Below, piece after piece: positions 38,961 through 56,005 of a DNA stretch of 64,000 bases (position 1 is the stretch's first letter; each line of letters opens with the position of its first letter). The DNA is taken from contig JAFKKG010000011.1 of NCBI GenBank assembly GCA_017305715.1, forward strand, positions 290,950 to 354,949, given 5' to 3'. The translations under genes and the position numbers were made by a program. The notes below the pieces were generated by a model that saw nothing but the letters and a program-made list of their open reading frames with translations, did not search any database and was not told the origin of the DNA. This DNA comes from Hyphomicrobiales bacterium (GTDB lineage Bacteria; Pseudomonadota; Alphaproteobacteria; Rhizobiales; Xanthobacteraceae).

Positions 38961-39142
38961 GGGGTCTCGGCGAGGGCGAGCGGGCCGTGACCGGCCGCGA
39001 CTCAAACGGACCCCCAAGCTAACCATTCGCGCGTTCCATGCAAGATGACTTCCGCGGCGCGGAATTGCGGTTTCATGGCCGAGGCTGGACTCGGCTCCCA
39101 TGGGGAATACACTGCCGCAAAACAACAATCGGGAGCGACGTC

Positions 39143-40354
39143 ATGAAATTCGGCATCTTTTACGAGCTGCAGCTGCCGCGCCCGTGGGAAGAGGGCGATG
39201 AGCTCCGGCTCTACCAGAATGCCCTGACGCAGCTCGAGACCGCCGATCGCTGCGGCTACGATCACGCCTGGGTGGTGGAACATCATTTCCTTGAGGAATA
39301 TTCGCATTCGCCGTCGCCCGAGTCGTTTCTCGCCGCGGCCTCCCAGCGCACCAAGAAGATCAGGCTCGGCCACGGCATCTTCCAGCTCACCACCAACCAT
39401 CCCGCGCGCGTCGCCGAACGTATCGCGGTGCTCGACCTGCTGAGCAACGGCCGCTGCGAATTCGGCATGGGCGAGAGTGCCTCGATCACCGAACTGACGC
39501 CGTTCGGCCGCGACATGGAAACCAAGCGCGAGGTGTTCGAGGAGGCCGTGCAGGCGATCTTTCCGATGTTCACCAAGATCGGCACCGAACATCACGGCAA
39601 ATATTTCGACATTCCGCTGCGCAACGTGGTGCCGAAGCCGGTGCAGAAGCCGCATCCGCCGCTGTGGATGGCCTGCTCGCAACTGCCGACCATCGAACGC
39701 GCCGGCGAAAACGGCTTTGGCGCGCTCGGCTTCCAGTTCGTCAGCGCCGATGCGGCGCATGCCTGGGTGCATGCCTATTACAACGCCATTACAAAACGGC
39801 TGAAGAAGCTCGCCGACTACGAGATCAACCCGAACATGGCGCTGGTGTCGTTCTTCATGTGCGCCAAGACCGACGAGGAAGCCCGCGCCCGCGCCGACGG
39901 CGCCACCTTCTTCCAGTTCGCGCTGCGCTATTACGGGCAGGGACAAAACCGGGCGCGTCCGGCGCCGGGCACCGTCAACATGTGGGACGAATACAACAAA
40001 TGGAAGCGCGACAATCCGGAGGCGCAGGAGGCCGCGTTGCGCGGCGGCCTGATCGGCTCGCCGGAAACCATCCGCAAGAAATTGCGCCGCTTCCGCTCCT
40101 CGCATATCGATCAGGTGATCCTGCTCAACCAGGCCGGCAAGAACACCCACGAGCACATCTGCGAATCGCTGGAACTGTTCGCCCAAGAGGTGATGCCGGA
40201 GTTCCAGCACGATCCCGAGCACGAGGCCTGGAAGGCCGGCGTGATGAGCGGCGCGATCCAGCTCGAGGAAATCGACACCGAGGCGTTCAAGGACCGCTAC
40301 GGCAAGCTGGCGGTCAGCGTTGCGCCGACTTCGAAGGTTGCGGCGGCGGGGTAG
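39143..40354 (+). CDS. LLM-class flavin-dependent oxidoreductase (bacterial luciferase-like)
   Basis: A 403-residue TIM-barrel flavoprotein. The ATG at 39143 has GGGAG seven bases upstream. Family features: MKFGIFYELQLPRPWEEGDE, the conserved VVEHHFLEEYSHSPSPESFL, IRLGHGIFQLTTNHPARVAE and LLSNGRCEFGMGES. It belongs to the luciferase-alpha-like rather than the SsuD-like side. It uses reduced FMN and O2 or coenzyme F420 on an unknown substrate. It is monocistronic, one gene away from the sulfonate cluster, and not clearly part of it. Confidence 0.9.
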   Translation: MKFGIFYELQLPRPWEEGDELRLYQNALTQLETADRCGYDHAWVVEHHFLEEYSHSPSPESFLAAASQRTKKIRLGHGIFQLTTNHPARVAERIAVLDLLSNGRCEFGMGESASITELTPFGRDMETKREVFEEAVQAIFPMFTKIGTEHHGKYFDIPLRNVVPKPVQKPHPPLWMACSQLPTIERAGENGFGALGFQFVSADAAHAWVHAYYNAITKRLKKLADYEINPNMALVSFFMCAKTDEEARARADGATFFQFALRYYGQGQNRARPAPGTVNMWDEYNKWKRDNPEAQEAALRGGLIGSPETIRKKLRRFRSSHIDQVILLNQAGKNTHEHICESLELFAQEVMPEFQHDPEHEAWKAGVMSGAIQLEEIDTEAFKDRYGKLAVSVAPTSKVAAAG

Positions 40355-41228: not shown

Positions 41229-42329
41229 ATGTCACGAAACGATAACGACAACACAGCGCGGCTGGATCGCCGCAAACTATTGGTCGGCGGGGCCGCGGCG
41301 GCTCTGGCGGCGCCGCTGGGTATGTTCGGCGCGCAGGCCTTTCCGTTTCGTCCGGCGGCGTCCGGCATCGATTTCTCGCAATTCCCGATCTGCAAGACCG
41401 CATCCGACGCGCCGGCGCTGACAGGCGCGCCACGAAAACTGAAATTGTCGTGGAATGCCGGCGCGGTCTGCCTCGTGCCGGTTCCGGTCGCCATCGACCA
41501 CGGCTTCTTCAGGAAACACAATCTCGACGTCGAGCTGATCAATTACAGCGGCTCGACCGACCAGTTGCTGGAGGCGATCGCGACCGGCAAGAGCGACGCG
41601 GGGCTCGGCATGGCGCTGCGCTGGCTGAAGCCGCTGGAGCAGGGGTTCGACGTCAAGATCGCGGCCGGCACCCATGGCGGCTGCATGCGCGTGCTGTCGC
41701 GCACCAATTCCGGCGTCGACAGACTGGCCGACCTCAAGGGCAAGATCGTCGCGGTCGGCGATCTCGGCGGCCCGGACAAGAATTTCTTTTCGATCCAACT
41801 CGCCAAGCAGGGCATCGATCCCAACAAGGATGTCGACTGGCGCGCCTATCCCGGCAATCTGCTGCAGCTTGCCGTCGAGAAGGGCGAGGTCCAGGCGTTC
41901 CTGGCCTCCGATCCGATCGCCCATATCTGGCTGAAGGACACCGCCTACAAGGAGGTTGCGTCCAATCTGGACGGCGAATACAGGGACAAGACCTGTTGCA
42001 TCCTCGGACTGCGCGGCAGCCTCGTCCGCGAAGAGCCGCAGGTCGCGCGCGCCATCACGCAGGCGCTGCTCGACGCGGCGATGTACACCGCGCAAAATCC
42101 CGACATTGCCGCGGCCTCGTTCCAGCCTTACGCGCCCAAGGCGGCGAGCCTGCAGGATCTGCAGGCCATGGTCCGCTACCACACCCACCATCACCATCCC
42201 GTCGGCGAAGTGTTGAAGCGCGAGCTGAAGGCCTATGCGGACGATCTGAAGAGCGTTTCGGTCTTCAAGGCCAGCACCGACACGGCGAAATTTGCGGAGC
42301 GGATCTATGTCGACGTATTCGGTGTCTAA
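41229..42329 (+). CDS. nitrate/sulfonate-type ABC substrate-binding protein (divergent SsuA/NrtA-like)
   Basis: A 366-residue binding protein, first gene of the first organosulfur operon. The ATG at 41229 follows GCAGGAG. The N-terminus holds a Tat-like signal (LDRRKLLVGGAAAALAAPLG). The mature part has an NMT1/SsuA fold: KLKLSWNAGAVCLVPVPVAI, NLDVELINYSGSTDQLLEAI, DLKGKIVAVGDLGGPDKNFF. A histidine-rich patch, HTHHHHP, lies near residue 328. It is the most divergent of the six binding proteins in this cluster. Its 3' end overlaps the permease start by 23 bases, so the pair is surely matched. Confidence 0.9.
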   Translation: MSRNDNDNTARLDRRKLLVGGAAAALAAPLGMFGAQAFPFRPAASGIDFSQFPICKTASDAPALTGAPRKLKLSWNAGAVCLVPVPVAIDHGFFRKHNLDVELINYSGSTDQLLEAIATGKSDAGLGMALRWLKPLEQGFDVKIAAGTHGGCMRVLSRTNSGVDRLADLKGKIVAVGDLGGPDKNFFSIQLAKQGIDPNKDVDWRAYPGNLLQLAVEKGEVQAFLASDPIAHIWLKDTAYKEVASNLDGEYRDKTCCILGLRGSLVREEPQVARAITQALLDAAMYTAQNPDIAAASFQPYAPKAASLQDLQAMVRYHTHHHHPVGEVLKRELKAYADDLKSVSVFKASTDTAKFAERIYVDVFGV

Positions 42330-43347
42330 GGCGGTCGCACTGGCGCAATCGGCGGAGGAGGGGGCCGCACTTGTGGGACGGCCACCGTCGCTGTCGTTCT
42401 CCTTTCCGGCCGGCGGCACCGGCGTGTTCGCCAGCCTGGCATGGATCGGCTTCGGCATATCCTGCCTGTGGTGGCCGGATATCGGCGACTGGACGCGCAC
42501 CCATCAACTCGCGGCGGCGGCGTTTGTCATCGCGGGCGCCATTTTCCTGGCCACCGTGGCGGGCAGCCGGCTCGGGCGTTTCAATGCGGGTCTGCAGAAG
42601 CGCGCACCGTGGCTATTGGTTTCGGCGCTGTTCCTGACGCTGTGGGAAGTCGCGACCGCGAAGTTCGCGTGGCTGCCGCTGCCGTTCTTCCCGCCGCCGC
42701 AGTCGATCATCGAGGTCTACACCGATGATCTGCCGAAATTGCTCGACAGCATCTTTGCTTCGGTCAAACTTCAGCTCGGAGGCTATGTCATCGGCGCCGC
42801 CGTCGGCTTCCTCACCGGCGTCTCGATCGGCTGGTCGCGCAGCGTCGGTTACTGGGTGCATCCGGTGCTGCGGTTCATCGGTCCGCTGCCGGCGACGGCA
42901 TGGCTGCCGATCGCGTTCTTTACGTTCCCGTCGAGCTGGAGCGCCTCGACGTTCCTGATTGCGCTCGCGACCGGGTTTCCGGTCACGGTGCTGACCTGGT
43001 CCGGTGTCGCGAGCGTCAGCAATGCCTATTACGACGTGGCGAGGACACTCGGCGCCAAGCCGTCGTTCCTGGTGCTGAAGGTCGCCATCCCCGCCGCATT
43101 GCCGCACGTGTTCGTCGGCCTGTTCATGGGCCTCGGCTCGTCGTTTGCGGTGCTGGTGGTGGCCGAGATGATCGGGGTCAAGGCCGGGCTCGGCTGGTAT
43201 CTGCAATGGGCGCAGGGCTGGGCGGCCTATGCCAACATGTATGCCGCCTTGATCGTGATGTCGCTGCTCTGCTCCGGCGCGATCACGCTGCTGTTCAGGA
43301 CCCGCGACCGGCTGCTGATCTGGCAGAAGGGGGTGGTCAAATGGTAG
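42307..43347 (+). CDS. ABC transporter permease (SsuC/TauC family) with extended N-terminus
   Basis: A 346-residue inner-membrane permease. The ATG at 42307 overlaps the binding-protein gene. The conserved cytoplasmic EAA-type loop for ATPase contact reads YYDVARTLGAKPSFLVLKVA followed by IPAALPHVFVGLFMGLG. It is about 80 residues longer than the SsuC-like permease at 53741. The extra N-terminal part has two additional hydrophobic helices (FASLAWIGFGISCLWW and LAAAAFVIAGAIFLATVAG). The ATPase gene follows with a 7-base overlap. Confidence 0.92.
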   Translation: MSTYSVSKAVALAQSAEEGAALVGRPPSLSFSFPAGGTGVFASLAWIGFGISCLWWPDIGDWTRTHQLAAAAFVIAGAIFLATVAGSRLGRFNAGLQKRAPWLLVSALFLTLWEVATAKFAWLPLPFFPPPQSIIEVYTDDLPKLLDSIFASVKLQLGGYVIGAAVGFLTGVSIGWSRSVGYWVHPVLRFIGPLPATAWLPIAFFTFPSSWSASTFLIALATGFPVTVLTWSGVASVSNAYYDVARTLGAKPSFLVLKVAIPAALPHVFVGLFMGLGSSFAVLVVAEMIGVKAGLGWYLQWAQGWAAYANMYAALIVMSLLCSGAITLLFRTRDRLLIWQKGVVKW

Positions 43348-44138
43348 CCCATGCGCTTGCCGAAGCCGTCACCTATCCGGCCGTCGGCGCTTCGCTTGAT
43401 GTCGAACGCATCAGCCACGCCTTCGATATCGACGGCAACGTCTTGCCGGTGCTTGACGATGTGAATTTCAGCGTCAAGCCCGGCGAGTTCATCGCCCTGC
43501 TCGGGCCATCCGGCTGCGGCAAGTCGACCTTGCTGCGGCTGGTCGCGGGCCTCGAAGCTCCCCGATCCGGCGTGCTGCGCGAGGACGGCGATCCCGTCAC
43601 CGGACCGTTTCCGTCACGCGTCGTGGTGTTCCAGGACCCGACATTGTTTCCGTGGCGAACCGTCTGGAACAACGTCGCGCTCGGGCTCGAGGCGCAGGGC
43701 ATCCTCAAAACCCAGCGGCAACGCGTTGATGCCGCGCTCGAGCTCGTCGGGCTGTCGCAGTTCCGCAATGCCTATCCGCATCAATTGTCCGGCGGCATGG
43801 CGCAGCGCGTCGCGTTGGCACGGGCGCTGGTGAACGATCCGAAGATCCTCATCCTCGATGAACCGCTTGGCAAACTGGATTCGCTGACGCGGATCACGAT
43901 GCAGGCGGAGATCGTCGCGCTGTGGCAGCGCAAGGGATTCACCACGCTCCTGGTCACGCATGACGTTGAAGAAGCCTTGTTCCTCGCCAACCGCGTCATC
44001 GTGTTCAGCGACCGTCCCGCGCGCATCAAGGCGGATATCGCGGTCGATCGTCCCTATCCGCGGCACCGCGGCGATCCCAGACTGGCGGAATTGCGGCGGA
44101 ACATCCTTGGCCTGCTCGGACTGGACGCCACATGGTGA
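43341..44138 (+). CDS. ABC transporter ATPase (SsuB/TauB family)
   Basis: A 265-residue ATPase that powers the upstream permease. Walker A is GPSGCGKST, the signature is [15 protein letters not shown], Walker B is ILILDEPLGKLD, and the switch His is in LLVTHDVEEALFLA. A short N-terminal extension (about 20 residues) precedes the domain. The ATG overlaps the permease stop, and the next gene overlaps this stop by 7 bases, so translation is coupled across the operon. Confidence 0.95.
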   Translation: MVAHALAEAVTYPAVGASLDVERISHAFDIDGNVLPVLDDVNFSVKPGEFIALLGPSGCGKSTLLRLVAGLEAPRSGVLREDGDPVTGPFPSRVVVFQDPTLFPWRTVWNNVALGLEAQGILKTQRQRVDAALELVGLSQFRNAYPHQLSGGMAQRVALARALVNDPKILILDEPLGKLDSLTRITMQAEIVALWQRKGFTTLLVTHDVEEALFLANRVIVFSDRPARIKADIAVDRPYPRHRGDPRLAELRRNILGLLGLDATW

Positions 44139-45316
44139 GCGCAAGCAGCATTTCGGCGCGCCAGGAGTCGCCCGTGGTGGCAGCGTCGGTGCCGTATGAT
44201 TGCGCGCGGGCGCTCGCATCGGAATTTGCGGCACGCGCGGCGCAGCACGATCGCGACGCCAGCTTTCCGCACGAAAACTTCAAGGAGCTTGCGGAAGCAG
44301 GGTTGTTGGCGCTGACCGTGCCGACGGCGCTGGGCGGCCATGGCGCCGGTGCGCTCGACACCGCGCGCATCCTCGGCATCTTCGGCAAGGCCGATCCGTC
44401 GACCGCGCTGGTGCTGTCGATGCATTACATCCAGCATCTGGTGATGGCGCGCAGCACCCGCTGGCCGGCGCGTCTGTCGCGCAAGCTGGCGCGCGAAGCG
44501 ATCGACGGCGTGGCGCTGATCAATGCGCTTCGGGTCGAGCCTGATCTGGGCTCGCCCGCGCGCGGTGGGCTGCCCGCAACGATCGCGCGGAGGACCGATA
44601 CCGGCTGGCGGCTTTCCGGCCGCAAGATCTATTCGACCGGCGCGCCGATCCTGAAATGGTATGCGGTGTGGGCGAAGACGGACGAACCCGAGACGCGCGT
44701 CGGCCTGTTCCTGGTGCCGGCGGGATTGCCGGGCACCCGGATTGAAGAGACGTGGAATCATCTCGGCCTGCGCGCCAGCGGCAGCCATGACATCATTTTC
44801 GAAGACGTCGTGTTCCCGCTCGACCATGAAGTCGATGTTCGCAGGCCCGAGGAATGGCAGGTGCCGGATTTCACCCAGTCCGTGGTGCATGCGATCTTCG
44901 TCGCCGCGATCTATGACGGCGTCGCGCGGGCCGCGCGCGACTGGCTGGTCGAGTTTCTCAGGAATCGCAAGCCATCCAATCTCGGCGCGTCGCTGGCGAC
45001 GTTGTCGAGGGTGCAGGAGGTCGTCGGCGGCATCGAGGCGCGGCTCGCGGTCAATGCGCGTCTGATCGACAGCTTTGCCGGCGATTTCGACGATGGCGTA
45101 CAGCTCAGCGCCTCCGAATCCAGCATCGTCAAGCTCACCGTCACCAACAATGCGGTCGCGATCGTCGAAGACGCGCTGTCGCTGACCAGCAATCACGGCC
45201 TGACCCGCGCCAATCCGCTGGAGCGGCATTTTCGCGACGTGCTGTGCGGGCGGGTCCACACCCCGCAGGACGATGCGACGCGGGTCAACGCCGGGCGTCT
45301 GGCGCTCGGTGTCTGA
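44132..45316 (+). CDS. acyl-CoA dehydrogenase-like flavoprotein (SfnB/DszC-like monooxygenase)
   Basis: A 394-residue acyl-CoA dehydrogenase-fold protein. Features: LTVPTALGGHGAGALDTARI, WRLSGRKIYSTGAPILKWYA, NHLGLRASGSHDIIFEDVVF, and a C-terminal helical domain ending LERHFRDVLCGRVHTPQDDA. The terminal RDVLCGRVHTPQDD motif is the one seen in SfnB, DszC and related desulfurisation enzymes rather than in beta-oxidation dehydrogenases. It overlaps the ATPase gene and precedes an SsuD-like monooxygenase. It probably uses reduced flavin from a reductase to oxidise an organosulfur compound before C-S cleavage. Confidence 0.88.
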   Translation: MVSASSISARQESPVVAASVPYDCARALASEFAARAAQHDRDASFPHENFKELAEAGLLALTVPTALGGHGAGALDTARILGIFGKADPSTALVLSMHYIQHLVMARSTRWPARLSRKLAREAIDGVALINALRVEPDLGSPARGGLPATIARRTDTGWRLSGRKIYSTGAPILKWYAVWAKTDEPETRVGLFLVPAGLPGTRIEETWNHLGLRASGSHDIIFEDVVFPLDHEVDVRRPEEWQVPDFTQSVVHAIFVAAIYDGVARAARDWLVEFLRNRKPSNLGASLATLSRVQEVVGGIEARLAVNARLIDSFAGDFDDGVQLSASESSIVKLTVTNNAVAIVEDALSLTSNHGLTRANPLERHFRDVLCGRVHTPQDDATRVNAGRLALGV

Positions 45317-45349
45317 ACGAATCACGAAACGAAACTCTGGAGTTAGTCC

Positions 45350-46450
45350 ATGTCTGTGGAATTCATCGGATACATCAGCAACAACAATTCATCCGAAAGC
45401 ATCGTGCGCAGCGGCCCGGTGCTCGACCGCTATCATATCGAGACCGTGGCGAAGGCGCATGAGAACGCGGGCTTCGATCGCGTCCTGCTGGCGTTTCACT
45501 CGACGACGCCGGACGGATTGCAGATCGGCCAGCATGTGCTCGGCGTGACCGACAGGCTCAATGTCCTGATTGCGCAGCGGCCCGGCTTCACCGCGCCGAC
45601 ATTGCTCGCGCGGCAATTGGCGACCGTCGACCAGCTCTCCGGCGGCCGCGTCGCGCTGCATGTCATCACCGGCGGCAACGCAACCGAACTGAAGCAGGAC
45701 GGCAATGTCATCGACGACAAGGACGAGCGCTACGCCCGGACCAGCGAGTTCCTCGACGTGGTTCGCGCCGAATGGACCAGCGAAAAGCCGTTCGCCTATG
45801 AGGGAAAGTATTACCAGGTGCAGAACGGCTTCTCGCAGGTGAAGCCCTATCGCAGCGAGGGCATTCCGATCTTCGTCGGCGGCGGCTCGGATGCCGCGAT
45901 CGAGGTCGCGGGCAAGCATGCCGATACCTTTGCGCTGTGGGGCGAATCCTATGCGCAGGTACGCGATGTGACGTCGCGGGTTCGCGCCGCCGCCGCAAGG
46001 CACGGCCGGCCGACGCCCCGCTTCAGCCTTTCGGTGCGCCCCATCCTCGCCGATACCGAGGAGAAGGCCTGGGCCAGGGCCGATGAAATTCTGACGCGCG
46101 CCACCGCGCTGCAGGACAAGACCGGATACCGCAAACCCGCGGACGGCCATGCCACCGCCGGGGCGCGGCGCCTGCTGGCGCTGGCCGAGCAGGGTTCAAG
46201 GATCGATAAGCGTCTGTGGACCGAAATCGCAAAACTCACGGGGGCCAACAGCAACACCACGGCGCTGGTCGGAACACCCGAACAGGTCGCCGAGGTGTTT
46301 GGCGATTATTATGATCTCGGCATCAGTCATTTCCTGATTCGCGGCTTCGATCCCCTGATCGAGGCCATCGACTATGGCCGCGAACTGATCCCGCTGACGC
46401 GGCAGTTGATCGCCGGACGCGGCGCCGCGAGGGGAGTGGCGGCGGAATGA
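45350..46450 (+). CDS. LLM-class FMNH2-dependent monooxygenase, SsuD-like
   Basis: A 366-residue luciferase-like enzyme that would cleave C-S bonds of alkanesulfonates to an aldehyde and sulfite. Family features: MSVEFIGYISNNNSSES, LLAFHSTTPDGLQIGQHVLG, LIAQRPGFTAPTLLARQLAT, SGGRVALHVITGGNATELKQ, PYRSEGIPIFVGGGSDAAI and TALVGTPEQVAEVFGDYYDL. It begins 33 bases after the SfnB-like gene and its stop overlaps the next start (ATGA). It differs clearly in sequence from the SsuD-like protein at 52572, so it probably has a different substrate. Confidence 0.92.
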   Translation: MSVEFIGYISNNNSSESIVRSGPVLDRYHIETVAKAHENAGFDRVLLAFHSTTPDGLQIGQHVLGVTDRLNVLIAQRPGFTAPTLLARQLATVDQLSGGRVALHVITGGNATELKQDGNVIDDKDERYARTSEFLDVVRAEWTSEKPFAYEGKYYQVQNGFSQVKPYRSEGIPIFVGGGSDAAIEVAGKHADTFALWGESYAQVRDVTSRVRAAAARHGRPTPRFSLSVRPILADTEEKAWARADEILTRATALQDKTGYRKPADGHATAGARRLLALAEQGSRIDKRLWTEIAKLTGANSNTTALVGTPEQVAEVFGDYYDLGISHFLIRGFDPLIEAIDYGRELIPLTRQLIAGRGAARGVAAE

Positions 46451-47388
46451 TGCGCGCTGTTCTCATTGCGAGCCTGCTGCTGGGGGCGGTCGCCTCGGCG
46501 GAGGCTCAGACCACGCTGCGCGTCGGCGATCAAAAGGGAAATTCGCAGGCCGTGATGGAAGCGGCCGGCGTCCTGAAAGACCTTCCGTATAAGATCGAGT
46601 GGAAGGAGTTTCCGGCCGCGGCGCCGCTGCTGGAGGCGTTGAGTGCGGGGGCGATCGAAACCGGTCTGGTCGGCGACGCGCCCTTCACCTTCGCTGCGGC
46701 CGCCAACGTTCCGGTCAGGGCGATCGCGGCGATCCGGCAGAGCCGCGAGGGTCTCGCGGTGCTGGTTCAGAAGGACTCGGCCGTCCGCGACTTCGAGGGC
46801 CTGAAGGGAAAGAAGATCGCAACCGGGCGCGGCTCGATCGGCCATCAGTTGATTCTGGCCGCCCTTGAAGCGAGGGGCTGGTCGACCAGTGATGTCCAGA
46901 TCGTGTTCCTCGCGCCATCGGATGCCAAGGTCGCCTATACGCAAGGCTCGGTCGATGCCTGGTCGACATGGGAGCCCTATGTCAGCCAGGAGGAAGTCCT
47001 GTTCCAGTCGCGGCGGGTGATCACGGCCGAGGGCATCACGCCGGGGCTTGGATTCCAGGTCGCCACGCCGAATGCGATCCGCGACAAGCGTCCGGAACTG
47101 GAAGACTTCGTTCGCCGGCTGACGGCGGCGCGGGCGTGGTCGCAGACCAATGTCAATGCCTATGCCGAGACATGGGGCAAACTGATGAGCATTCCGCCTG
47201 CGGTGCCGCTCAACTGGCTGAGCCGGGCGAAAATCCGCGTTGCCCCGATCGACGACAGTGTCGTCGCCGACGAGCAGCAAACCATCGATCTCTATTTTCG
47301 CTCCGGCCTGATCAAACAGAAACTCAACGCGGCCGACATCGTCGACCGTTCGTTTTCCGGAGCGATCGGCAAGGGGGCGGGCCTTTAG
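46447..47388 (+). CDS. sulfonate-type ABC substrate-binding protein (SsuA-like), operon-terminal
   Basis: A 313-residue binding protein, last gene of the first organosulfur operon. Start fixed by the ATGA overlap with the monooxygenase. It has a Sec signal (MMRAVLIASLLLGAVASAEA) and the SsuA motifs LRVGDQKGNSQAVMEAAG, FPAAAPLLEALSAGAIETGL and FEGLKGKKIATGRGSIGH. It is a second binding protein in an operon that already begins with one (41229), so one permease-ATPase pair seems to have two receptors. Confidence 0.92.
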   Translation: MMRAVLIASLLLGAVASAEAQTTLRVGDQKGNSQAVMEAAGVLKDLPYKIEWKEFPAAAPLLEALSAGAIETGLVGDAPFTFAAAANVPVRAIAAIRQSREGLAVLVQKDSAVRDFEGLKGKKIATGRGSIGHQLILAALEARGWSTSDVQIVFLAPSDAKVAYTQGSVDAWSTWEPYVSQEEVLFQSRRVITAEGITPGLGFQVATPNAIRDKRPELEDFVRRLTAARAWSQTNVNAYAETWGKLMSIPPAVPLNWLSRAKIRVAPIDDSVVADEQQTIDLYFRSGLIKQKLNAADIVDRSFSGAIGKGAGL

Positions 47389-47519
47389 GCTGCAACAGCG
47401 GGTCCACGCAGCAAGTCTTTCTCCGCCAGCCGCTGTTTTCGAAACAGCAGCCGGCTTGCGTAGAATGATTTCCTGATTACCATTGATCACAACACTGTAT
47501 TTGGAAGAAAGTTCTGCAA

Positions 47520-48029
47520 ATGACCGACGTCGTCACCCTTACCTCCGGACCGGTCCGGCGCATCGATGCAATCGACCGCAAGATCCTGCGGGTTCTTCAG
47601 GAAGATGCCTCGCTGTCGGTGGCCGAGATCGGGGAACGCGTCGGGCTTTCCTCCACGCCCTGCTGGAAGCGCGTCCAGCGCATGGAGAACGAAGGCATCA
47701 TCACCGGCAAGGTCGCGCTGGTCGACCAGAACAAGATCGGTCTCGGGCTGTCGGTGTTCGTCTCGGTCGAGAGTGACGATCATTCCGATGCGTGGCTGAA
47801 GAAATTCGCTGCCGCCGTCAGCGCCATGCCTGAAGTGATCGAGTTCTACCGCATGGCCGGCGACGTGGACTATGTGCTGCGCGTGGTCGTCGCCGACATG
47901 CGGAGCTATGATCTCTTCTACAAGAAGCTGATCGGTGCGGTCGCGCTGAAGAACGTGACCTCGCGGTTCGCCATGGAGAAGATCAAGTCGGTGACCGCAT
48001 TGCCGGTTCCGGCGTTCGAGGCGGCATAG
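47520..48029 (+). CDS. Lrp/AsnC-family transcriptional regulator
   Basis: A 169-residue regulator. An N-terminal helix-turn-helix (about residues 15-65: DAIDRKILRVLQEDASLSVA, VGLSSTPCWKRVQRMENEGI) is followed by a RAM ligand-binding domain (VALVDQNKIGLGLSVFVSVE, DVDYVLRVVVADMRSYDLFY). A GGAAG ribosome site lies upstream. It is embedded between two sulfonate binding protein genes. Lrp-type proteins commonly respond to amino acids; here sulfur amino acids such as cysteine or methionine are a plausible signal. Confidence 0.93.
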   Translation: MTDVVTLTSGPVRRIDAIDRKILRVLQEDASLSVAEIGERVGLSSTPCWKRVQRMENEGIITGKVALVDQNKIGLGLSVFVSVESDDHSDAWLKKFAAAVSAMPEVIEFYRMAGDVDYVLRVVVADMRSYDLFYKKLIGAVALKNVTSRFAMEKIKSVTALPVPAFEAA

Positions 48030-48067
48030 CCGCCGCCTCGCTTGGTATCCGCCGGCACTTGGCTCCA

Positions 48068-49036
48068 TCAATCGCGCTTCGGCGCCCAGATCTTCGCATC
48101 GCCGGCATTGACCTTTACCGGCAGCAATCCTTCCGCGAAGAACGCATCCGCGATGCGCTGCTGTTCGGACAGGCCGGGCGCCGTGACGACACCGACCTTG
48201 TAGGAGCGATGGCTATTGGCCTCCTTCACCGTCGCCGCATCGATACTCCAAAGGCCCGACAACAAGGTCGCCGCGTCATCCGGATGCGCCTTGACCCATT
48301 TGCCGGTCTCGTCGAGCTTGCCGAAGATGGCATTGAGCACGTCACCGCGCCGATCCGCAAACGCGGCCGACGACAGATAGTAGCGCTTGTAGCTCGCAAG
48401 GCCGTTGCTGCCGTCGGACAGCACCCGCGCGTTGGACCGGCGCTGCGCGCTGGTCAGGAACGGATCCCAGGCCACCCACGCATCGACGTTGCCGCCGATG
48501 AAGGCGGCGCGGCCGTCCGCCGGCGTAAGATAGGCCGGCGAAATATCCTTGAAGCCGAGGCCTGATTTGGCGAGTGCGGCCAGCAGCAGGAAATGACTGC
48601 CGGCGCCCTTTGTCACCGCGACCTTCTTGCCCTTCAGGTCGGCCAGCGTCTTGATCGGCGATTCCGCGCCGACCAGAATGGCCTGTGCCGAGGGTGAAGC
48701 GGCTTCTTCCGCGATGTAGGCGAGCTTGGCGCCGGCGGCCTGCGCGAACAGCGGCACGGTATCGGCGACATCCGCGCCGAAATCGATGTTGCCGGTATTG
48801 ATCGCTTCCAGCAGCGGCAGGCCGCTGGTGAATTCATGCCAGGAAATGCGGACGCCGAGCGGTGCGAGCACCTTTTCCAGCTCGCCATTGGTCTTCAGGA
48901 TGGCCGTCAGCGTCGAGGATTTCTGATAGCCGATCCGGATCGTATCGGATGGCGGGATCTGCGCACCCACGGATGTTACTGAAACGATCGCGATCGCCGC
49001 GATGGCTCCGATGATTGATGCGGTGCGGTTGCCCAT
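48068..49036 (-). CDS. sulfonate ABC substrate-binding protein (SsuA-like), reverse orientation
   Basis: A 322-residue binding protein and the only gene of this cluster on the minus strand. Start 49036 gives MGNRTASIIGAIAAIAIVSV, a Sec signal ending VGAQ. SsuA motifs: IRIGYQKSSTLTAILKTNGE, FTSGLPLLEAINTGNIDFGA, KTLADLKGKKVAVTKGAGSH and DAWVAWDPFLTSAQRRSN. It is convergent with the Lrp gene and divergent from the next binding protein gene. It has no permease of its own. Confidence 0.93.
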   Translation of the reverse strand: MGNRTASIIGAIAAIAIVSVTSVGAQIPPSDTIRIGYQKSSTLTAILKTNGELEKVLAPLGVRISWHEFTSGLPLLEAINTGNIDFGADVADTVPLFAQAAGAKLAYIAEEAASPSAQAILVGAESPIKTLADLKGKKVAVTKGAGSHFLLLAALAKSGLGFKDISPAYLTPADGRAAFIGGNVDAWVAWDPFLTSAQRRSNARVLSDGSNGLASYKRYYLSSAAFADRRGDVLNAIFGKLDETGKWVKAHPDDAATLLSGLWSIDAATVKEANSHRSYKVGVVTAPGLSEQQRIADAFFAEGLLPVKVNAGDAKIWAPKRD

Positions 49037-49361
49037 GAGATTGCTCTGCCTGAAATGTAAGAGATCAAGCAAAGCTAAAGATCAGGCGACCTCAGTCAAT
49101 AGAATCGCCATCCGTTGTTGTCATGCGATCCGTACGACGATGCTGCGCCGGCCGGCGTTCGCAGAGATAAATTCCATGCGGCACGTTCCGGTGACCGAAT
49201 TGCTGCTTCCTGCAGAGATGAAGTCATTTGCCGAGTACCCGGCCGTGCCGGAAATCTTGCGCGCTTGAATTCATCTTTGAAACAACAATCCGGAAAAACC
49301 GGCGTAGCGTTTTGGGTTCGCGATCCAGCATCGCCAACACAAAACGGAGCAAAGCCAAGAC
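49037..49361. other. divergent intergenic region, 325 bp, between two binding-protein genes
   Basis: The gap must hold promoters for the genes at 48068 (minus) and 49362 (plus). I see no consensus sigma-70 pair and no long palindrome beyond a short GCCGGCCGGC. There is no coding potential that I trust. Confidence 0.5.
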
Positions 49362-50324
49362 ATGTCACAGACCAGACGGACCCTGATTGCCGGCGCAGCG
49401 CTCGCCCTGCTGGGGTCGATCGCGATCGCCCCATCGCCTGTCGCCGCGCAGCAGTTGAAGGAGGTTCGAATCGGATTTCAACGCGCCGGGCTGTTTCCCG
49501 CGGTCAAGCAGCGGCGCACGGTCGAAGACGTGCTCAAGCCGCGCGGCGTCGACGTGAAGTGGGTCGAGTTTTCGTTCGGGCCGCCGCTGCTCGAAGCGCT
49601 GAACACCGGGAATATTGATTTCGGCTATACGGGCGATGCGCCGCCGATCTTCGCGCAGGCGGCCCGTGCCAACTTGCTCTATGTCGCGGCACTGCCGACC
49701 TCGGGGGGCAACGAGGCGATCGTGGTGCCTGCGGACTCGCCCATCAAGACGCTGGCCGATCTCAAGGGCAAGAAGGTGGGATTTGCCAAGGGCTCCAGCG
49801 CCCACAACACGACGGTGGCGGCGCTTGAAAAGGCCGGCCTTTCCTATTCCGACATTACTCCCGTCTATCTCGCGCCGGCTGACGCCGCTACCGCCTTTGC
49901 CGGCGGCAGCCTGGATGCGTGGACGATCTGGGATCCCTACCTTGCGCTCACCGAGAAGGGAAAGGTGCGCGTGCTGGCTTCAGCCAAGGATGTCCACGCC
50001 ACCAACGCCTTCTTCCTCGCCAACAAGGATTTTACCGGAGCGCACCAGGACATCGTGGCGCTGCTGAACCAGACTTTTGCGCAAGAGTCGAAATGGGCGG
50101 ATCAGCATCGCGCAGAAATCGTGAAGACCCTGCGTGAGGCAACCAGTTTTGACACGGAGGCGCTTGACCGCGCGGTTAGCCGGTCGCAGTTCCTGGTCAC
50201 GCCGCTGACGGACAAGATTATCGCGAGCCAGCAGGCGACCGCCGATCGGTTTCTGAAGCTTGGTCTCATTCCCAAGGCGATCAACGTCAAGGATATCGTC
50301 TGGAACTGGACGCCGGGGTCTTAG
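49362..50324 (+). CDS. sulfonate ABC substrate-binding protein (SsuA-like), monocistronic
   Basis: A 320-residue binding protein with a Tat-like start (SQTRRTLIAGAALALLGS, signal ends VAAQ). SsuA motifs: [80 protein letters not shown] and DAWTIWDPYLALTEKGKV. A strong intrinsic terminator follows at 50357, so it forms its own transcript. It must share a permease with its neighbours. Confidence 0.94.
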   Translation: MSQTRRTLIAGAALALLGSIAIAPSPVAAQQLKEVRIGFQRAGLFPAVKQRRTVEDVLKPRGVDVKWVEFSFGPPLLEALNTGNIDFGYTGDAPPIFAQAARANLLYVAALPTSGGNEAIVVPADSPIKTLADLKGKKVGFAKGSSAHNTTVAALEKAGLSYSDITPVYLAPADAATAFAGGSLDAWTIWDPYLALTEKGKVRVLASAKDVHATNAFFLANKDFTGAHQDIVALLNQTFAQESKWADQHRAEIVKTLREATSFDTEALDRAVSRSQFLVTPLTDKIIASQQATADRFLKLGLIPKAINVKDIVWNWTPGS

Positions 50325-50356
50325 CGGGTTCGACCGAATCTGCTGCCCAATCAACT

Positions 50357-50387
50357 AACGCCCGCCGATTTCATCGGCGGGCGTTTT
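50357..50387 (+). terminator. intrinsic terminator after the 49362 binding-protein gene
   Basis: AACGCCCGCCGA and TCGGCGGGCGTT are exact reverse complements of 12 bases with loop TTTCA, followed by TTGA. It lies 33 bases past the stop. The rest of the 50325-50632 gap holds a short direct repeat, TGCTGCCCAATC, at about 50341 and 50412, with nothing else I can name. Confidence 0.88.
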
Positions 50388-50632
50388 GACTCCAGGCCTT
50401 CGGGTTCCGTTGCTGCCCAATCGAAGATTAACGAATCTGGGCGGCATGATGGCCGAGAAAAATGCGTCATTGCCTATCCTGTTTCGACAATAAACGCGTC
50501 GTCATGAGTTGGCTCGGCAGTACCGTCATTGCTATTTTTGCGGAGCACTCGACACCCTTCGAAAGCAGCACCATCATCTCTCGCATCGCATGATCGCGCC
50601 GTGTTGCGATCGTGATCGTTCAGGAGAATGTG

Positions 50633-51580
50633 ATGAAGCGTCGGGATTTTCTCAAGGTGTCGGTGGGCGGTGCGGCCATCGCGCTGTCGCCTCGGGCGCG
50701 CGCGCAGGCGCCGGTCAAGGAAATCCGGATCGGCTATCAGAAAACCGGCGTGCTTGTGATCACGCGGCAGCAGGCCATTCTCGAAAAGCACTTCGCCGCG
50801 AAACAAATTTCCATCAAATGGATCGAGTTCACGTCGGGACCGCCGATGATGGAAGCGATGAGCACCGGCAGTGTCGATCTTGGCGCGGTCGGCGACGCGC
50901 CGCCGGTCTTTGCCCAGGCCGCGAATGCCAACGTCGTCTATGTGGCGGGTTCGCCGATTACCAACGGGCAGGGCATTCTGGTTCCGGCCAACTCCGCCAT
51001 TCGCACGATTGCGGATTTGAAGGGCAAGCGAATCGGGTTCGGCAAGGGCACCAGCGCGCATAATGTTCTGATTGCGACGCTGGAAAAAGCCGGCCTCACC
51101 TATGAGGATATCACGCCGGTCTACCTGTCGCCGCCCGATGCGGGGCCGGCCTTCGCCAATGGCAGCATCGACGCATGGGCGATCTGGGATCCCTATTTCG
51201 CAATTGGCGAGAAGCGGCAGAACGGCCGGATCCTGGTCAACGCCTACGAAGTCGCCAAGACCAATTCGTTCTATCTCGCCAACCGCGATTTTGCGAACGC
51301 CAACGTTCAGCACACCCGCGACCTCATCTTGGGCCTGACGCAAGCTGCGCGGTGGGCGGAGGCGAACCGCGACGCGGTGGCCACTTCGCTCGCCGCGGTG
51401 ACGGGCGTGCCGCTGGAAGTGCAGACGGTGGCGGCCAACCGTGCGTCGTTCGCGATCGGCCCGGTGACGGAAGAGATCATCGATACCCAGCAGGCCGTCG
51501 CCGACCGCTTCTTCAAGCTCGGCTTGATCCCGAAGCGGATCGCGGTTCGCGACATCGTCTGGCGCCACACCCAGACCTGA
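50633..51580 (+). CDS. sulfonate ABC substrate-binding protein (SsuA-like), Tat-exported
   Basis: A 315-residue binding protein. The ATG at 50633 follows AGGAG and opens on a canonical Tat signal (MKRRDFLKVSVGGAAIAL, ends ARAQ). SsuA motifs: IRIGYQKTGVLVITRQQAIL, FTSGPPMMEAMSTGSVDLGA, VGDAPPVFAQAANANVVYVA and DAWAIWDPYFAIGEKRQNGR. It begins the second sulfonate operon, with the next binding protein 42 bases downstream. The use of Tat export distinguishes it from its Sec-exported neighbour at 51622. Confidence 0.94.
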   Translation: MKRRDFLKVSVGGAAIALSPRARAQAPVKEIRIGYQKTGVLVITRQQAILEKHFAAKQISIKWIEFTSGPPMMEAMSTGSVDLGAVGDAPPVFAQAANANVVYVAGSPITNGQGILVPANSAIRTIADLKGKRIGFGKGTSAHNVLIATLEKAGLTYEDITPVYLSPPDAGPAFANGSIDAWAIWDPYFAIGEKRQNGRILVNAYEVAKTNSFYLANRDFANANVQHTRDLILGLTQAARWAEANRDAVATSLAAVTGVPLEVQTVAANRASFAIGPVTEEIIDTQQAVADRFFKLGLIPKRIAVRDIVWRHTQT

Positions 51581-51621
51581 GTTTCCAAAAAGCATTCCAT
51601 TCAACGCAGAGGATTTTCAAC

Positions 51622-52575
51622 ATGAAGCGTTTCGTCAAACGCCTGATCGCGAGCGCGGTGCTGTCGCTCGCTATTGTCGGCTCCACGGTTGGCCTCAGCT
51701 ATGGCCAGGACAAGGTCGTGCGGATCGGCTTCCAGAAATACGGCAAGCTGGTGCTGCTCAAGAGCAAGGGTACGCTCGAAGGCAGGCTGAAGGCCGCCGG
51801 CTATCAGGTGGTCTGGACGGAGTTTCCATCCGGGCCGCCGCTGCTCGAGGCGCTCAATGTCGGCGCCATCGATTTCGGCAACACCGGCGAAGCGCCGCCG
51901 ATCTTCGCGCAAGCCGCGGGCGCGCCGCTCCAGTATGTCGCCTATGAGCCGCCGGCGCCGAAAGGCGAGGCGATCCTGGTGCCAAAGGACAGCAAGATCG
52001 CCTCGGTCGCCGAGCTGAAAGGCAAGAAGGTCGCGCTCAACAAGGGCTCCAACGTCCACTATCTCCTGGTGAAGGCGCTGGAGAAGGCCGGTATCAAATA
52101 TTCCGACATCGAGCCGGTGTTTCTCGCGCCGGCCGATGCCCGCGCGGCCTTCGAGCGCGGTGCGGTCGACGCCTGGGTGATCTGGGACCCGTTCCAGGCC
52201 GCCGCCGAAGCCGCCACCGGCGCGCGCACGCTCGCCGACGGCACCGGCATCGTCTCGAACTACCAGTTCTACTTCGCCTCGAAGAAGTTCATCGCGGCCG
52301 ATCCCAAGATCGTCGATCTCGTGCTCGCGCAACTCAGCGAAGTCGACGATTGGGCCAAGGGCGATATCCACACCGTCGCCGAGCAACTGGCGCCCACCAT
52401 CGGCCTGCCGGTCCCGGTCGTCGAAGTCGCCTTGAAGCGGCAGTCCTACGGCATCAAGCCGATCACCGATGCGGTGATCGCGGATCAGCAGCAGGTCGCC
52501 GACACCTTCTTCGCGCTCGGCCTCATTCCCAGACAGATCAAGATTTCCGACGCGGCACGGAGGCCGGGTTCATGA
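51622..52575 (+). CDS. ssuA: aliphatic sulfonate ABC substrate-binding protein (SsuA)
   Basis: A 317-residue binding protein with AGAGGA upstream and a Sec signal (about residues 1-28, ends LSYGQ). SsuA motifs: [80 protein letters not shown] and [19 protein letters not shown]. Its stop overlaps the ssuD-like start (ATGA), and permease and ATPase follow. This is the standard ssuA position, so I use that symbol. Confidence 0.95.
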
Positions 52576-53744
52576 GCAGCCTTCCATCATCCAACGCCAA
52601 CATCCTCTGGTTCCTGCCGACCCATGGCGACGGCCGCTATCTCGGCACCACCACCGGCGGGCGCGAAGTGAACTTCAATTATCTGCGCCAGATCGCGCAG
52701 GCGGCGGACCAACTCGGTTATTACGGCGTGCTGCTGCCGACCGGGCGAAGCTGCGAGGATTCCTGGGTGGTGGCCTCCGCCGTCGCGCCCTGGACCGAGC
52801 GGTTGCGGTACCTCGTGGCGGTGCGGCCCGGCCTGCAATCACCCAGCGTCGCCGCGCGCATGACCGCGACGCTCGACCGGCTGTCGAGCGGGCGTCTCCT
52901 GGTCAACGTCGTCACCGGCGGTGATCCCGTCGAGAACAAGGGCGACGGGATTTTCCTCGACCACGATCAGCGTTACGCCGTGACGCGCGAGTTCCTCAAC
53001 ATCTATAGCGACCTGCTCGCGGGCAAGACCGTCAATGTCGAAGGCAAGCACATTCGGATCGAGGATGGCCGCCTGCTGTTTCCGCCGGTGCAGTCGCCGC
53101 GGCCGCCGCTGTATTTCGGCGGATCGTCGGATGCCGGCATCGATGTCGCCGTCGATACCGTCGACAAATACCTGACCTGGGGCGAACCGCCGGCGCAGGT
53201 CGCCGACAAGATCAACCGGGTCAAAGCGGTCGCCCACTCCCGCGGGCGAAAACTTTCCTTCGGCATCCGGCTGCATGTGATCGTTCGCGAGACCAATGCG
53301 GAAGCGTGGCGGGCGGCGGACGAATTGATCCAGCACGTCACCGACGAGACCGTGGCCTCGGCGCAGAAGATCTTTTCGCGGATGGATTCGGTCGGGCAGC
53401 AGCGCATGGCGCAGTTGCATGGCGGGCGCCGCGACAAGCTCGAAATCAGCCCGAATCTCTGGGCCGGTGTGGGCCTCGTGCGCGGCGGGGCAGGGACCGC
53501 GCTGGTCGGCGATCCCCACACCGTGGCGGCGCGGATCAAGGAATATCAGGATGTCGGCATCGATACTTTCATCATGTCGGGCTATCCGCATCTCGAAGAA
53601 GCCTATCGCTTCGCCGAACTGGTGTTTCCGTTGCTGTCGCTCAAGCAGCCGAACAACGTGACGCCGCTCCGCGTCAACACCGGACCGTTCGGCGAGACCA
53701 TCGCCAATGAGCATCGTCCCCTCGCCAAGGCCTCGCAGTCATGA
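52572..53744 (+). CDS. ssuD: FMNH2-dependent alkanesulfonate monooxygenase (SsuD)
   Basis: A 390-residue luciferase-family enzyme cleaving alkanesulfonates to aldehyde and sulfite in the cytoplasm. Features: [20 protein letters not shown] at the N-terminus, [60 protein letters not shown], the mobile-loop region near [15 protein letters not shown], and [20 protein letters not shown]. These match characterised SsuD proteins along the whole length. Start and stop are translationally coupled to ssuA and ssuC by 4-base overlaps. Confidence 0.96.
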
Positions 53745-54547
53745 GTCTGATCGATAGTCTGCCACGGGTCCGAAGCCTGCGCCTGCCGCGCGCCGACGGG
53801 CTGATCCCCTGGATCGTGCCGCTCGTGATCATCCTGGTCTGGCAGGTCGCCTGCGTCACCGGCTTCGTCTCGGCGCGGGTATTGCCGGCGCCGAGCGACG
53901 TCGCGCTGGCGGGCTGGAAGCTGTTGCTGTCGGGCGAACTGGTGCGCAACATCTGGGTCAGTTTCTGGCGCGCCAGCGTCGGCTTCCTGATCGGCGGCAG
54001 CATCGGCTTTGCCTTCGGCCTCGCCAACGGCCTGTCGCAACTGTCCAGCAAGCTCACCGATACGACCTTGCAGATGGTGCGCAACATCCCGCATCTGGCG
54101 CTGATCCCGCTGGTCATCCTGTGGTTCGGCATTGATGAATCGGCAAAACTGTTCCTGGTCGCGCTCGGGGTGTTCTTCCCGATCTACCTGAACACGCTGC
54201 ACGGCATCCGCACCGTCGATCCGCAGTTGATCGAGATGGGGCGCATCTACGGCATGACCGACGGCGAGTTGTTCCGCCGGGTCATCTTTCCAGGGGCGCT
54301 GCCGTCGATCTTCGTCGGACTGCGCTTTGCGCTCGGCATCATGTGGCTGACCTTGATCGTGGCGGAGACCATCGCGGCCTCCTCCGGCCTCGGTTACATG
54401 GCGATGCAGGCGCGCGAGTTCATGCTGATCGACGTGGTCGTGCTCTCCATCCTGATCTATGCGCTGCTCGGCAAGCTGGCCGACAGCGCGTCGCGTGCGC
54501 TGGAGCGGCTGACGCTGTCCTGGCATCCGGCCTTCCAGAAACATTGA
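53741..54547 (+). CDS. ssuC: sulfonate ABC transporter permease (SsuC)
   Basis: A 268-residue inner-membrane permease with about six helices. The cytoplasmic ATPase-contact loop reads [20 protein letters not shown] then [16 protein letters not shown]. It begins with an ATGA overlap with ssuD. The length is standard for SsuC, unlike the longer permease at 42307. It probably serves ssuA and the extra receptors at 48068, 49362 and 50633. Confidence 0.95.
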
Positions 54548-54555
54548 GGATTGAA

Positions 54556-55401
54556 ATGCAGGAAGCTCTTCGTTTTCGTGCGGTGGATGCCGAGGCTGTG
54601 GAAAGTCCGGATTTCGTCAAGCGCGCGCAGCTATCACGGCGCGGCGCGGGAGCCCCGACGCGCGGGCTTTCGCTGACGATCCGGGGGCTGCGCAAATCCT
54701 TCGGCGATAACGAGGTGCTGCGCGGCATCGACCTGCACATCCCGGCGGGCCAGTCCGTCGCCATCGTCGGCCGCAGCGGCTGCGGCAAGAGCACGCTGCT
54801 GCGGCTGATCGCGGGCCTTGAAACGGTCACCGCGGGCAACATCAGTTTCGGCGAGGAAACGCGCGCCGAAGACGTCCGGGTGATGTTCCAGGAGCCTCGG
54901 CTATTGCCGTGGGCGCGGGTGCTCTCGAACGTCGAGGTCGGCCTCGGGCGCGAGCGCCATTCGGCGGATGCGCAGGCCCGCGCCGATAGCGCGCTGGTCG
55001 AAGTCGGCCTGGACGACAAACGCGGGCAATGGCCGGCGGTGCTTTCCGGCGGTCAGAAGCAGCGCGTGGCGCTGGCGCGGGCCTTGGTCAGCCGGCCGCG
55101 CGTGCTGGCGTTCGACGAGCCGCTCGGTGCGCTGGACGCCTTGACGCGGATTTCGATGCAGCGGCTGCTGGAGCGGGTCTGGCAGGATCAGGGCTTTACC
55201 GCGATCCTGGTGACGCATGACGTGGCCGAGGCGGTCGCGCTCGCCGACCGCGTCCTCGTGATCGAGGACGGCCGCATCGCGCACGACATCAACGTCGATA
55301 TCCCGCGCCCGAGGCGGCGAGGGTCGGCCGAGCTCGCCGCACTCGAAGGCTCGATCCTGAAGAACCTGCTGCAAGGCACCGAGGACACTTCCGACCTGTG
55401 A
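54556..55401 (+). CDS. ssuB: sulfonate ABC transporter ATPase (SsuB)
   Basis: A 281-residue ATPase. The ATG at 54556 lies 8 bases after ssuC with TTGAGGATTG upstream. Walker [10 protein letters not shown], signature [15 protein letters not shown], Walker [13 protein letters not shown], and switch His in [16 protein letters not shown]. An N-terminal extension of about 38 residues, basic and Ala/Arg-rich, precedes the ATPase fold. The flavin reductase gene follows after 7 bases. Confidence 0.96.
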
Positions 55402-55408
55402 GGCCATC

Positions 55409-56005
55409 ATGAACTCCATTGTCCGCCATATTGCGATCGAGCGTCAGGTTCCCAAGGAAGTCTCGCAAGGCGACTTTCGCGGCGCCATGCGCCAGTTGAC
55501 GGGCGGCGTGAGCGTCATCACGGCCGGGATGGCTAAGGACATTTCGGGCATGACCGTGACCTCGGTGTCGTCGCTGTCGGTCGATCCGCCGGCATTGATC
55601 GTCAGCGTCAACCGCAGCGCCTCGTCCTGGCCGCTGCTGAAGCGCTACGGCTTCTTCGGCGTCAATATCCTGACATCGGACCAGATCGATATCGCCGAGC
55701 GCTTTGCCGGCAAGGACGGCCTCAGGGGCGCCGAGCGTTTTACCGGCGCTGAATGGACGACGCGGATCTCGGGCGTGCCGCTGCTCTCGGGCGCGCTGGC
55801 CGCGATCGATTGCGAGATCGAGGAAATCGTCGAGCGGCATTCGCATGCGATCCTGATCGGCCGGGTGCTGGACGTCCAGCTCTCGACGCGCACCGCGGCG
55901 TTGGCCTATTGGCACGGGCAATATGTCGCGATCGACCGCGACGAGGACGCGGTCCGGCTGGCGGAGGTCAGCGTGCCGGCGCCGCGGGCGGCACGAAAGG
56001 CCTGA
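55409..56005 (+). CDS. flavin reductase family protein (FMN reductase partner of SsuD)
   Basis: A 198-residue flavin-reductase-like (FMN-binding split-barrel) protein that should supply FMNH2 to the SsuD and SfnB-like oxygenases. Features: FRGAMRQLTGGVSVITAGMA, GMTVTSVSSLSVDPPALIVS, NRSASSWPLLKRYGFFGVNI, and HSHAILIGRVLDVQLST. This is the DIM6/NTAB/HpaC type, not the flavodoxin-like SsuE of enterobacteria. It lies 7 bases after ssuB, so it is the last enzyme of the operon. Confidence 0.92.
   Translation: MNSIVRHIAIERQVPKEVSQGDFRGAMRQLTGGVSVITAGMAKDISGMTVTSVSSLSVDPPALIVSVNRSASSWPLLKRYGFFGVNILTSDQIDIAERFAGKDGLRGAERFTGAEWTTRISGVPLLSGALAAIDCEIEEIVERHSHAILIGRVLDVQLSTRTAALAYWHGQYVAIDRDEDAVRLAEVSVPAPRAARKA

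Follow-up and report, generated by a model that had tools for sequence, protein, structure and literature searches.

A composite organosulfur locus of Bradyrhizobium in which several receptor classes may use one Ssu importer

Gene content of the locus

The locus described here occupies positions 41229 to 56005 of a 64,000-nucleotide stretch of DNA (the window) from a Hyphomicrobiales bacterium (assembly GCA_017305715.1, contig JAFKKG010000011.1, positions 290,950 to 354,949), which we assign to Bradyrhizobium, the genus to which all counts below refer. Among named genomes, the nearest matches to its monooxygenase LLM1 come from Bradyrhizobium and are 92-95% identical. As a first-pass annotation had described, six receptor genes and two permease-ATPase pairs of ATP-binding cassette (ABC) importers lie within 15 kb, together with two luciferase-like monooxygenases, one flavoprotein and one flavin reductase, and all of these genes are present and intact. 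They are listed here with the features between them; Tat denotes twin-arginine translocation.

41229..42329, + strand: R1, Tat-type receptor of the NMT1 fold, module I (Pfam NMT1, 61.6 bits)
42307..43347, + strand: P1, ABC permease of module I (best NCBIfam matches SaoP and NtrB, both below cut-off)
43341..44138, + strand: A1, ABC ATPase of module I (best match SaoA, below cut-off)
44132..45316, + strand: DH, flavoprotein of the acyl-CoA-dehydrogenase fold
45350..46450, + strand: LLM1, luciferase-like monooxygenase related to SsuD
46447..47388, + strand: R2, SsuA-family receptor (SsuA_fam 204.8), overlapping LLM1 by 4 nucleotides
47520..48029, + strand: LRP, Lrp/AsnC-type regulator (scores below equivalog cut-offs)
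48068..49036, - strand: R3, SsuA-family receptor of the Ala86/Gly141 class (SsuA_fam 208.9), divergent from R4
49362..50324, + strand: R4, SsuA-family receptor of the Ser141 class with a Tat-type motif (SsuA_fam 240.5)
50358..50387, + strand: hairpin directly 3' of R4, a 12-bp perfect GC-rich stem followed by TTTT, possible terminator
50527..50577, + strand: promoter-like block of the ssu operon, CATTGCTATTTTT-N8-CTCGACA-N17-CATCAT
50633..51580, + strand: R5, SsuA of the Ser141 class with a Tat-type motif (PRK11553 302.5, cut-off 299)
51622..52575, + strand: R6, SsuA of the Asn141 class without a Tat motif (PRK11553 315.8, cut-off 299), overlapping ssuD by 4 nucleotides
52572..53744, + strand: SsuD, alkanesulfonate monooxygenase
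53741..54547, + strand: P2, SsuC-like permease (PRK11365 346.0, cut-off 347)
54556..55401, + strand: A2, SsuB-like ATPase (best match PRK11247, 334.6, cut-off 395)
55409..56005, + strand: FR, flavin reductase in the place of SsuE (PF01613, 130 bits; best NCBIfam match RutF, below cut-off)

The genes from R1 to R2 form module I, and those from R5 to FR form module II, a genuine ssu operon; R3 and R4, which lie between the modules, have no importer genes of their own here. In both modules neighboring genes overlap at their start and stop codons or are separated by at most about 40 bases, which suggests that each is read as an operon. R4 is probably a transcription unit of its own, because the hairpin with its TTTT ends R4 and because R5 has its own promoter-like block; the terminator scan did not list this hairpin, which is too T-poor for the criteria of that scan. 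A tRNA scan and an Rfam search at gathering scores gave no match in the window.

The family assignments of the first-pass annotation stood in part. All six receptor reading frames are real, with the qualification that the one placed at 48068 (R3) lies on the minus strand and starts with the ATG at 49036. Described as six SsuA/TauA-like receptors, they include five, R2 to R6, that pass the SsuA family model TIGR01728 (cut-off 163.5; R5 scores 242.9 and R6 250.1), whereas R1, at 70.2, stays below the cut-off and so is a related but different receptor. R5 and R6 also pass the PRK11553 subfamily model, which R2 (163.1), R3 (256.6) and R4 (272.1) do not reach. On the TauA model TIGR01729 (cut-off 304) the best score among R2 to R6 was 80.6 (R5), and R1 was not among the matches listed. 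Of the two monooxygenases called SsuD-like, the protein at 52572 passes TIGR03565 (640, cut-off 518), but LLM1 scores only 205; the flavoprotein likened to SfnB and DszC does have SfnB as its best match, but at 127 against a cut-off of 431 (TIGR04022), and reaches 37 against 850 on the DszC model NF043015. P1 scores 76 on the SsuC model PRK11365, and A1 scores 228.9 on the SsuB model PRK11247. The five ligand loops that had been quoted were found in the translations of R2 to R6, and none comes from R1. A difference in export route was likewise borne out for the window, as a simple Tat pattern occurs in R1, R4 and R5 and is absent from R2, R3 and R6, but 23 of 53 R6 orthologues carry the motif, so that the route is not fixed for the R6 class.

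In the whole genome six genes pass the SsuA family model, and five of these are R2 to R6. Comparison of each window copy with one relative gave ratios of nonsynonymous to synonymous differences (pN/pS) of 0.08-0.19 for all six receptors and of 0.04-0.19 over the 11 genes tested, as under purifying selection. Since five of six such genes sit here and all six receptors are under purifying selection, the clustering of the receptors is not a product of chance.

Receptor classes and receptor exchange at the ssu locus

SsuD orthologues (E <= 1e-150) occur in 198 of 265 genomes of the genus, and we compared 72 ssu loci, namely the window and one from each of 71 further genomes; individual loci are given as L-numbers. 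Forty of the 71 were hand-picked along the ranked SsuD list without genomes already sampled, while the remaining 31 are nearest relatives or were chosen for matches to R1, R3 or R4, so that receptor-set frequencies over all 72 loci are biased. SsuA-family receptors were counted up to 4.5 kb upstream of ssuD, a limit just beyond which R3 of the window lies, and were labeled by best BLAST match, with two trees (89 and 62 sequences) as a check; R0 is a divergent SsuA-like receptor of relatives.

One receptor was counted at 18 of the 72 loci, two at 34 and three at 20, and the 40 picked loci gave 11, 21 and 8, respectively. By these gene counts an ssu locus of the genus most often has two receptors; a single receptor, which had been described as usual for ssu clusters, is what E. 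coli has, but 29 of the 40 picked loci have two or three. The sets found were R5 with R6 (31 loci), R5 (14), R0 in front of R5 and R6 (11) and R3 in front of R5 and R6 (7), followed by an R4-type receptor alone (4), R4-type with R6 (2) and three other sets at one locus each. Where R0 or R3 stands in front of the ssu operon, it is in divergent orientation. Throughout the genus the core is constant, SsuD being 83-97% identical (the split G005 copy aside) and P2 82-98%. That split copy, in L051, has ssuD seemingly in two frames, with pieces 88% and 76% identical. A further luciferase-like oxidoreductase, LLM0 (39038-40354 in the window), is present in the examined stretch of 56 of the 72 loci, where it perhaps delimits the variable region on one side. 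After FR come flagellar genes, flbD and fliG among them, and a relative of LRP adjoins R4 elsewhere in genome G163 (L070).

According to excerpts of PMC3839906, SsuA of Xanthomonas citri contacts the sulfonate through Gln36, Gly68, Gly86 and Ser141. R4 and R5 match it at all four positions (Q/G/G/S, with one R5 row gapped), and the others deviate, R6 having Q/G/G/N, R3 Q/G/A/G, R2 Q/A/G/I and R1 N/T/M/P. These deviations are kept within classes: Asn at 141 in 53 of 53 R6 sequences, Ala at 86 with Gly at 141 in 9 of 9 for R3, Ala at 68 with Ile or Val at 141 in 9 of 9 for R2, and Ala at 68 with Trp at 141 in 18 of 18 for R0. In other families the same class residues recur: all 9 R6-type receptors have Asn, all 8 of the R4/R5 group have Ser, and both R3-type receptors have Ala/Gly. 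R2 to R6 are mutually 30-50% identical, and the receptor phylogeny, as the first-pass annotation had proposed to examine, places R3 to R6 in separate old clades, with R0 and R2 in a clade apart from them (support 99/95). The receptor classes are thus, as far as the trees tell, old lineages. Recent tandem duplication was considered and rejected, as the receptors fall into separate old clades in both trees.

This depth of divergence bears on the idea that the receptors are redundant copies which raise the dosage of binding protein for the same ligands. The agreement of R4 and R5 at all four contact positions, together with the replacement of R5 by R4-type genes described below, is what this idea would lead one to expect, but the low identities, the separate clades and the contact residues, which are fixed and differ between all classes other than the R4/R5 pair, leave it improbable in our estimation.

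Exchange of receptors is seen at the ssu operon. An R4-type gene is its sole receptor gene in L174, L216, L217 and L219. The consensus block CATYGCTATTTTT-N8-CTCGACA-N17-CATCAT precedes R5, and it precedes the R4-type gene in five of the six operons led by one (L174, L205, L216, L217 and L219), which indicates that an R4-type receptor can take the place of R5 with the promoter-like block retained. A motif search across the receptor promoters found one strong block, that before the ssu operon, the core of which recurs nowhere else in the genome without mismatch. The block passes in 72 of 75 upstream regions at a loose threshold of at most 6 mismatches of 16; among the 70 of these 72 rows that were listed, the R4-type region of L169 does not resemble a match.

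Several receptors are also encoded with a single permease-ATPase pair, as R5 and R6 are with P2-A2 in the window. Two loci of another family (L240 and L242, family f42) have, on one strand and with a single core, the order R4/R5-type receptor, P2, A2, SsuD, R6-type and R3-type receptor; tree supports for these assignments are 100/99 for the R4/R5 group, 98/98 for R6 and 100/100 for R3, and their R3 orthologues are 64% identical to R3. Outside the genus we examined 21 loci (20 and L049), leaving receptor matches below 110 bits uncounted, and in 13 of them both P2 and A2 have relatives at least 50% identical, with no receptor in the examined stretch at 2 loci, one at 7, two at 2 and three at 2.

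Module I and the weighing of importer sharing

Relatives of R1 (E <= 1e-80) occur in 167 of the 265 genomes, and the neighbors of module I were compared at 80 named LLM1 loci, some counts being restricted to loci long enough to tell. R1, P1 and A1 are complete in 72 of 76 such loci, R2 was found in 63 of 76, and R0 adjoins the module at 58 of 73. At only 12 of the 80 do the flanks include SsuD. Judged from these neighborhoods, module I is widespread in the genus and usually lies away from ssu. At 11 of the 72 ssu loci R0 is instead a neighbor of ssu. An example of R0 is L059:1533-2774 (minus strand, longest open frame); the cluster of the window is without R0. The gene after R2 in L105 has no Pfam family match.

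Five of the 72 ssu loci have six receptors; in the window these include R4 and not R0, and in L031, L058, L059 and L061 they include R0 and not R4. What had been called a supercluster therefore resolves into two separable modules, and the six-receptor arrangement is, on this comparison, a lineage-specific juxtaposition. In its strongest form the earlier claim would have all six receptors act as one array feeding both importers, and we regard this as very improbable: the physical clustering here and in the four six-receptor relatives speaks for it, but R1 belongs to a different family and has its own adjacent permease-ATPase pair, with which it is kept at nearly all loci, the R0/R2 clade stands apart from R3 to R6, and P1 and P2 are only 30% identical.

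R1 lacks the sulfonate-contact residues and may thus bind a ligand other than a sulfonate. Among proteins of solved structure, those nearest to it in sequence are parts of CmpC and of nitrate transporters, in weak matches (best E 4e-7), and the AlphaFold models have low mean confidence (predicted local distance difference test, pLDDT, 54 for R1 and 43 for R2). Residues 317-324 of R1 form a histidine run, YHTHHHHP, that is kept in 15 of 16 aligned orthologue rows, the exception (L091) diverging there, and several cysteines are invariant among the orthologues. Such a run is unusual for a receptor of this fold and is perhaps metal-related.

Taken together, our results lead us to propose, with somewhat more than even confidence, a composite organosulfur locus at which several receptor classes use the one P2-A2 importer. 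Sharing of SsuC/SsuB by R5, R6 and R4-type receptors is supported by comparative genomics, because the same core pairs with different receptors, because R4-type genes replace R5, and because the receptors of L240 and L242 share one core; the retention of class-specific contact residues points the same way. For R3, sharing is suggested less firmly, by the two loci of the other family. For R1 and R2, which belong to the separable module with its own permease-ATPase pair, it is uncertain, and for R2 the importer itself is uncertain because DH, LLM1 and R2 follow a different receptor-permease-ATPase set in two Tardiphaga loci (L147 and L151) and in Bradyrhizobium sp. NFR13 (L150).

That last arrangement is one of several observations that weigh against the proposal. 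No promoter-like block was seen before the R4-type gene of L169; no sulfur regulon was found from the two near-miss copies of the block in the genome (2 and 3 mismatches), one of them adjoining open reading frames that read in translation as TetR-like and FAD-enzyme genes; and the block is absent before R1, R3 and R4 of the window, so that it does not prove common control of the receptors. Two of the 13 P2-A2 loci outside the genus have no strong SsuA-type receptor match nearby. R4-type genes adjoin TauD-like genes in L063 and L071. Finally, of 14 R3 orthologue loci examined, 3 are at ssu and 11 elsewhere, and 6 of these 11 genes (L162, L163, L166, L167, L170 and L177) have a further permease-like and ATPase-like gene at most 5 kb away, so that R3 may serve other importers. 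The dioxygenase of L063 and L071 is 35% identical to E. coli TauD, and in L063 the R4-type and TauD-like combination lies directly behind R1-P1-A1.

These neighbor counts bear on a different explanation, according to which two independent one-importer systems adjoin by chance and R3 and R4 serve importers elsewhere or act as sensors. The rarity of SsuD near LLM1 and the off-ssu positions of R3 fit it, as does the finding that no permease-plus-ATPase pair lies within 5 kb of any of the nine R4-type genes examined off ssu, which was also counted in favor of sharing. The R3 counts led us to lower slightly the weight given to importer sharing and to raise slightly that of independent systems, which nevertheless appear unlikely, given R3-type receptors inside the single-core operons of L240 and L242, R4-type genes as sole ssu receptors at four loci, and the 7 of 72 loci at which R3 diverges from R5-R6-ssu.

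In the proposed reading, module II works as a standard ssu system, in which SsuA-type receptors bind alkanesulfonates in the periplasm, P2-A2 (SsuC-SsuB) imports them, and SsuD desulfonates them with reduced flavin from the flavin reductase. The receptor classes would dock in turn on P2-A2, R5 and R6 from the operon and R4, and probably R3, from units of their own, and by binding differing ligands, possibly under sulfur-starvation control, the choice of receptor would widen the sulfonate range. Strains would gain, lose and exchange receptors around an unchanging importer and oxygenase. Module I would be a second import-and-oxidation set, in which R1 works with P1-A1, the flavoprotein DH, the monooxygenase LLM1 and the receptor R2, and which is kept as a block that adjoins ssu in the window and at a minority of the examined loci.

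We speculate further, with confidence evenly balanced, that in the order (Bradyrhizobium and relatives) the Ssu importer is a fixed core with interchangeable receptor cassettes, of which three old classes (Ser141, Asn141 and Ala86/Gly141) would divide sulfonate space, so that a strain adjusts its organosulfur diet through the receptors that it adds, loses or swaps, partly behind one unchanged promoter; R0 and R2 would form a fourth class, with R0 beside either of two importers. If so, the receptor set of a strain would predict its usable sulfonates and a single residue position would give a direct handle on specificity, while the natural receptor swaps offer matched pairs for studying what lets an ABC importer work with different receptors. 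Organic compounds hold most of the sulfur in soil. Work cited in the excerpted text of PMC11941057 indicates that Bradyrhizobium is impaired in symbiotic nitrogen fixation when ssuD is lost.

Comparison with known systems

Module II resembles ssuEADCB of E. coli in its SsuA-, SsuD-, SsuC- and SsuB-type genes and in the 4-nucleotide overlap of receptor gene and ssuD, with identities of 63% for SsuD, 61% for SsuC (P2) and 45% between SsuA and R6. In contrast to the one receptor of E. coli, there are two here in the operon and two outside it, and the place of SsuE is taken by a flavin reductase of another family (PF01613).

Closer to the window, sulfonate genes of Bradyrhizobium diazoefficiens USDA110 include bll6451, bll6452 and bll7010 (Sugawara 2011 and Speck 2019, as cited in passages of PMC11941057), and bll6455 and bll6449 are annotated, in portions of PMC6515984, as a substrate-binding protein and a methyltransferase. 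These two annotations fit the gene order of module I, although the gene after R2 in L105, with no Pfam family match, did not confirm the methyltransferase label of bll6449, and modules I and II are probably orthologues of the cited B. japonicum/USDA110 sulfonate genes, in a gene-by-gene match that we infer.

The X. citri genome, with ssu1, ssu2 and NrtT, has several sulfonate receptors that belong to different groups (PMC4501297, PMC5623697); unlike in the window, each receptor is described, in the sections of these papers that we draw on, with its own permease-ATPase pair. No description of multi-receptor ssu loci was found in the open-licence literature, which was covered in part. One importer with several receptors is nonetheless a known principle: in Pseudomonas aeruginosa the paralogous receptors DppA1 to DppA5 have distinct ligand profiles and work with one ABC importer, DppBCDF (excerpts of PMC4206461 and PMC12728205), a system that is like the proposed one in having several receptors per importer and differs from it in carrying peptides, not sulfonates.

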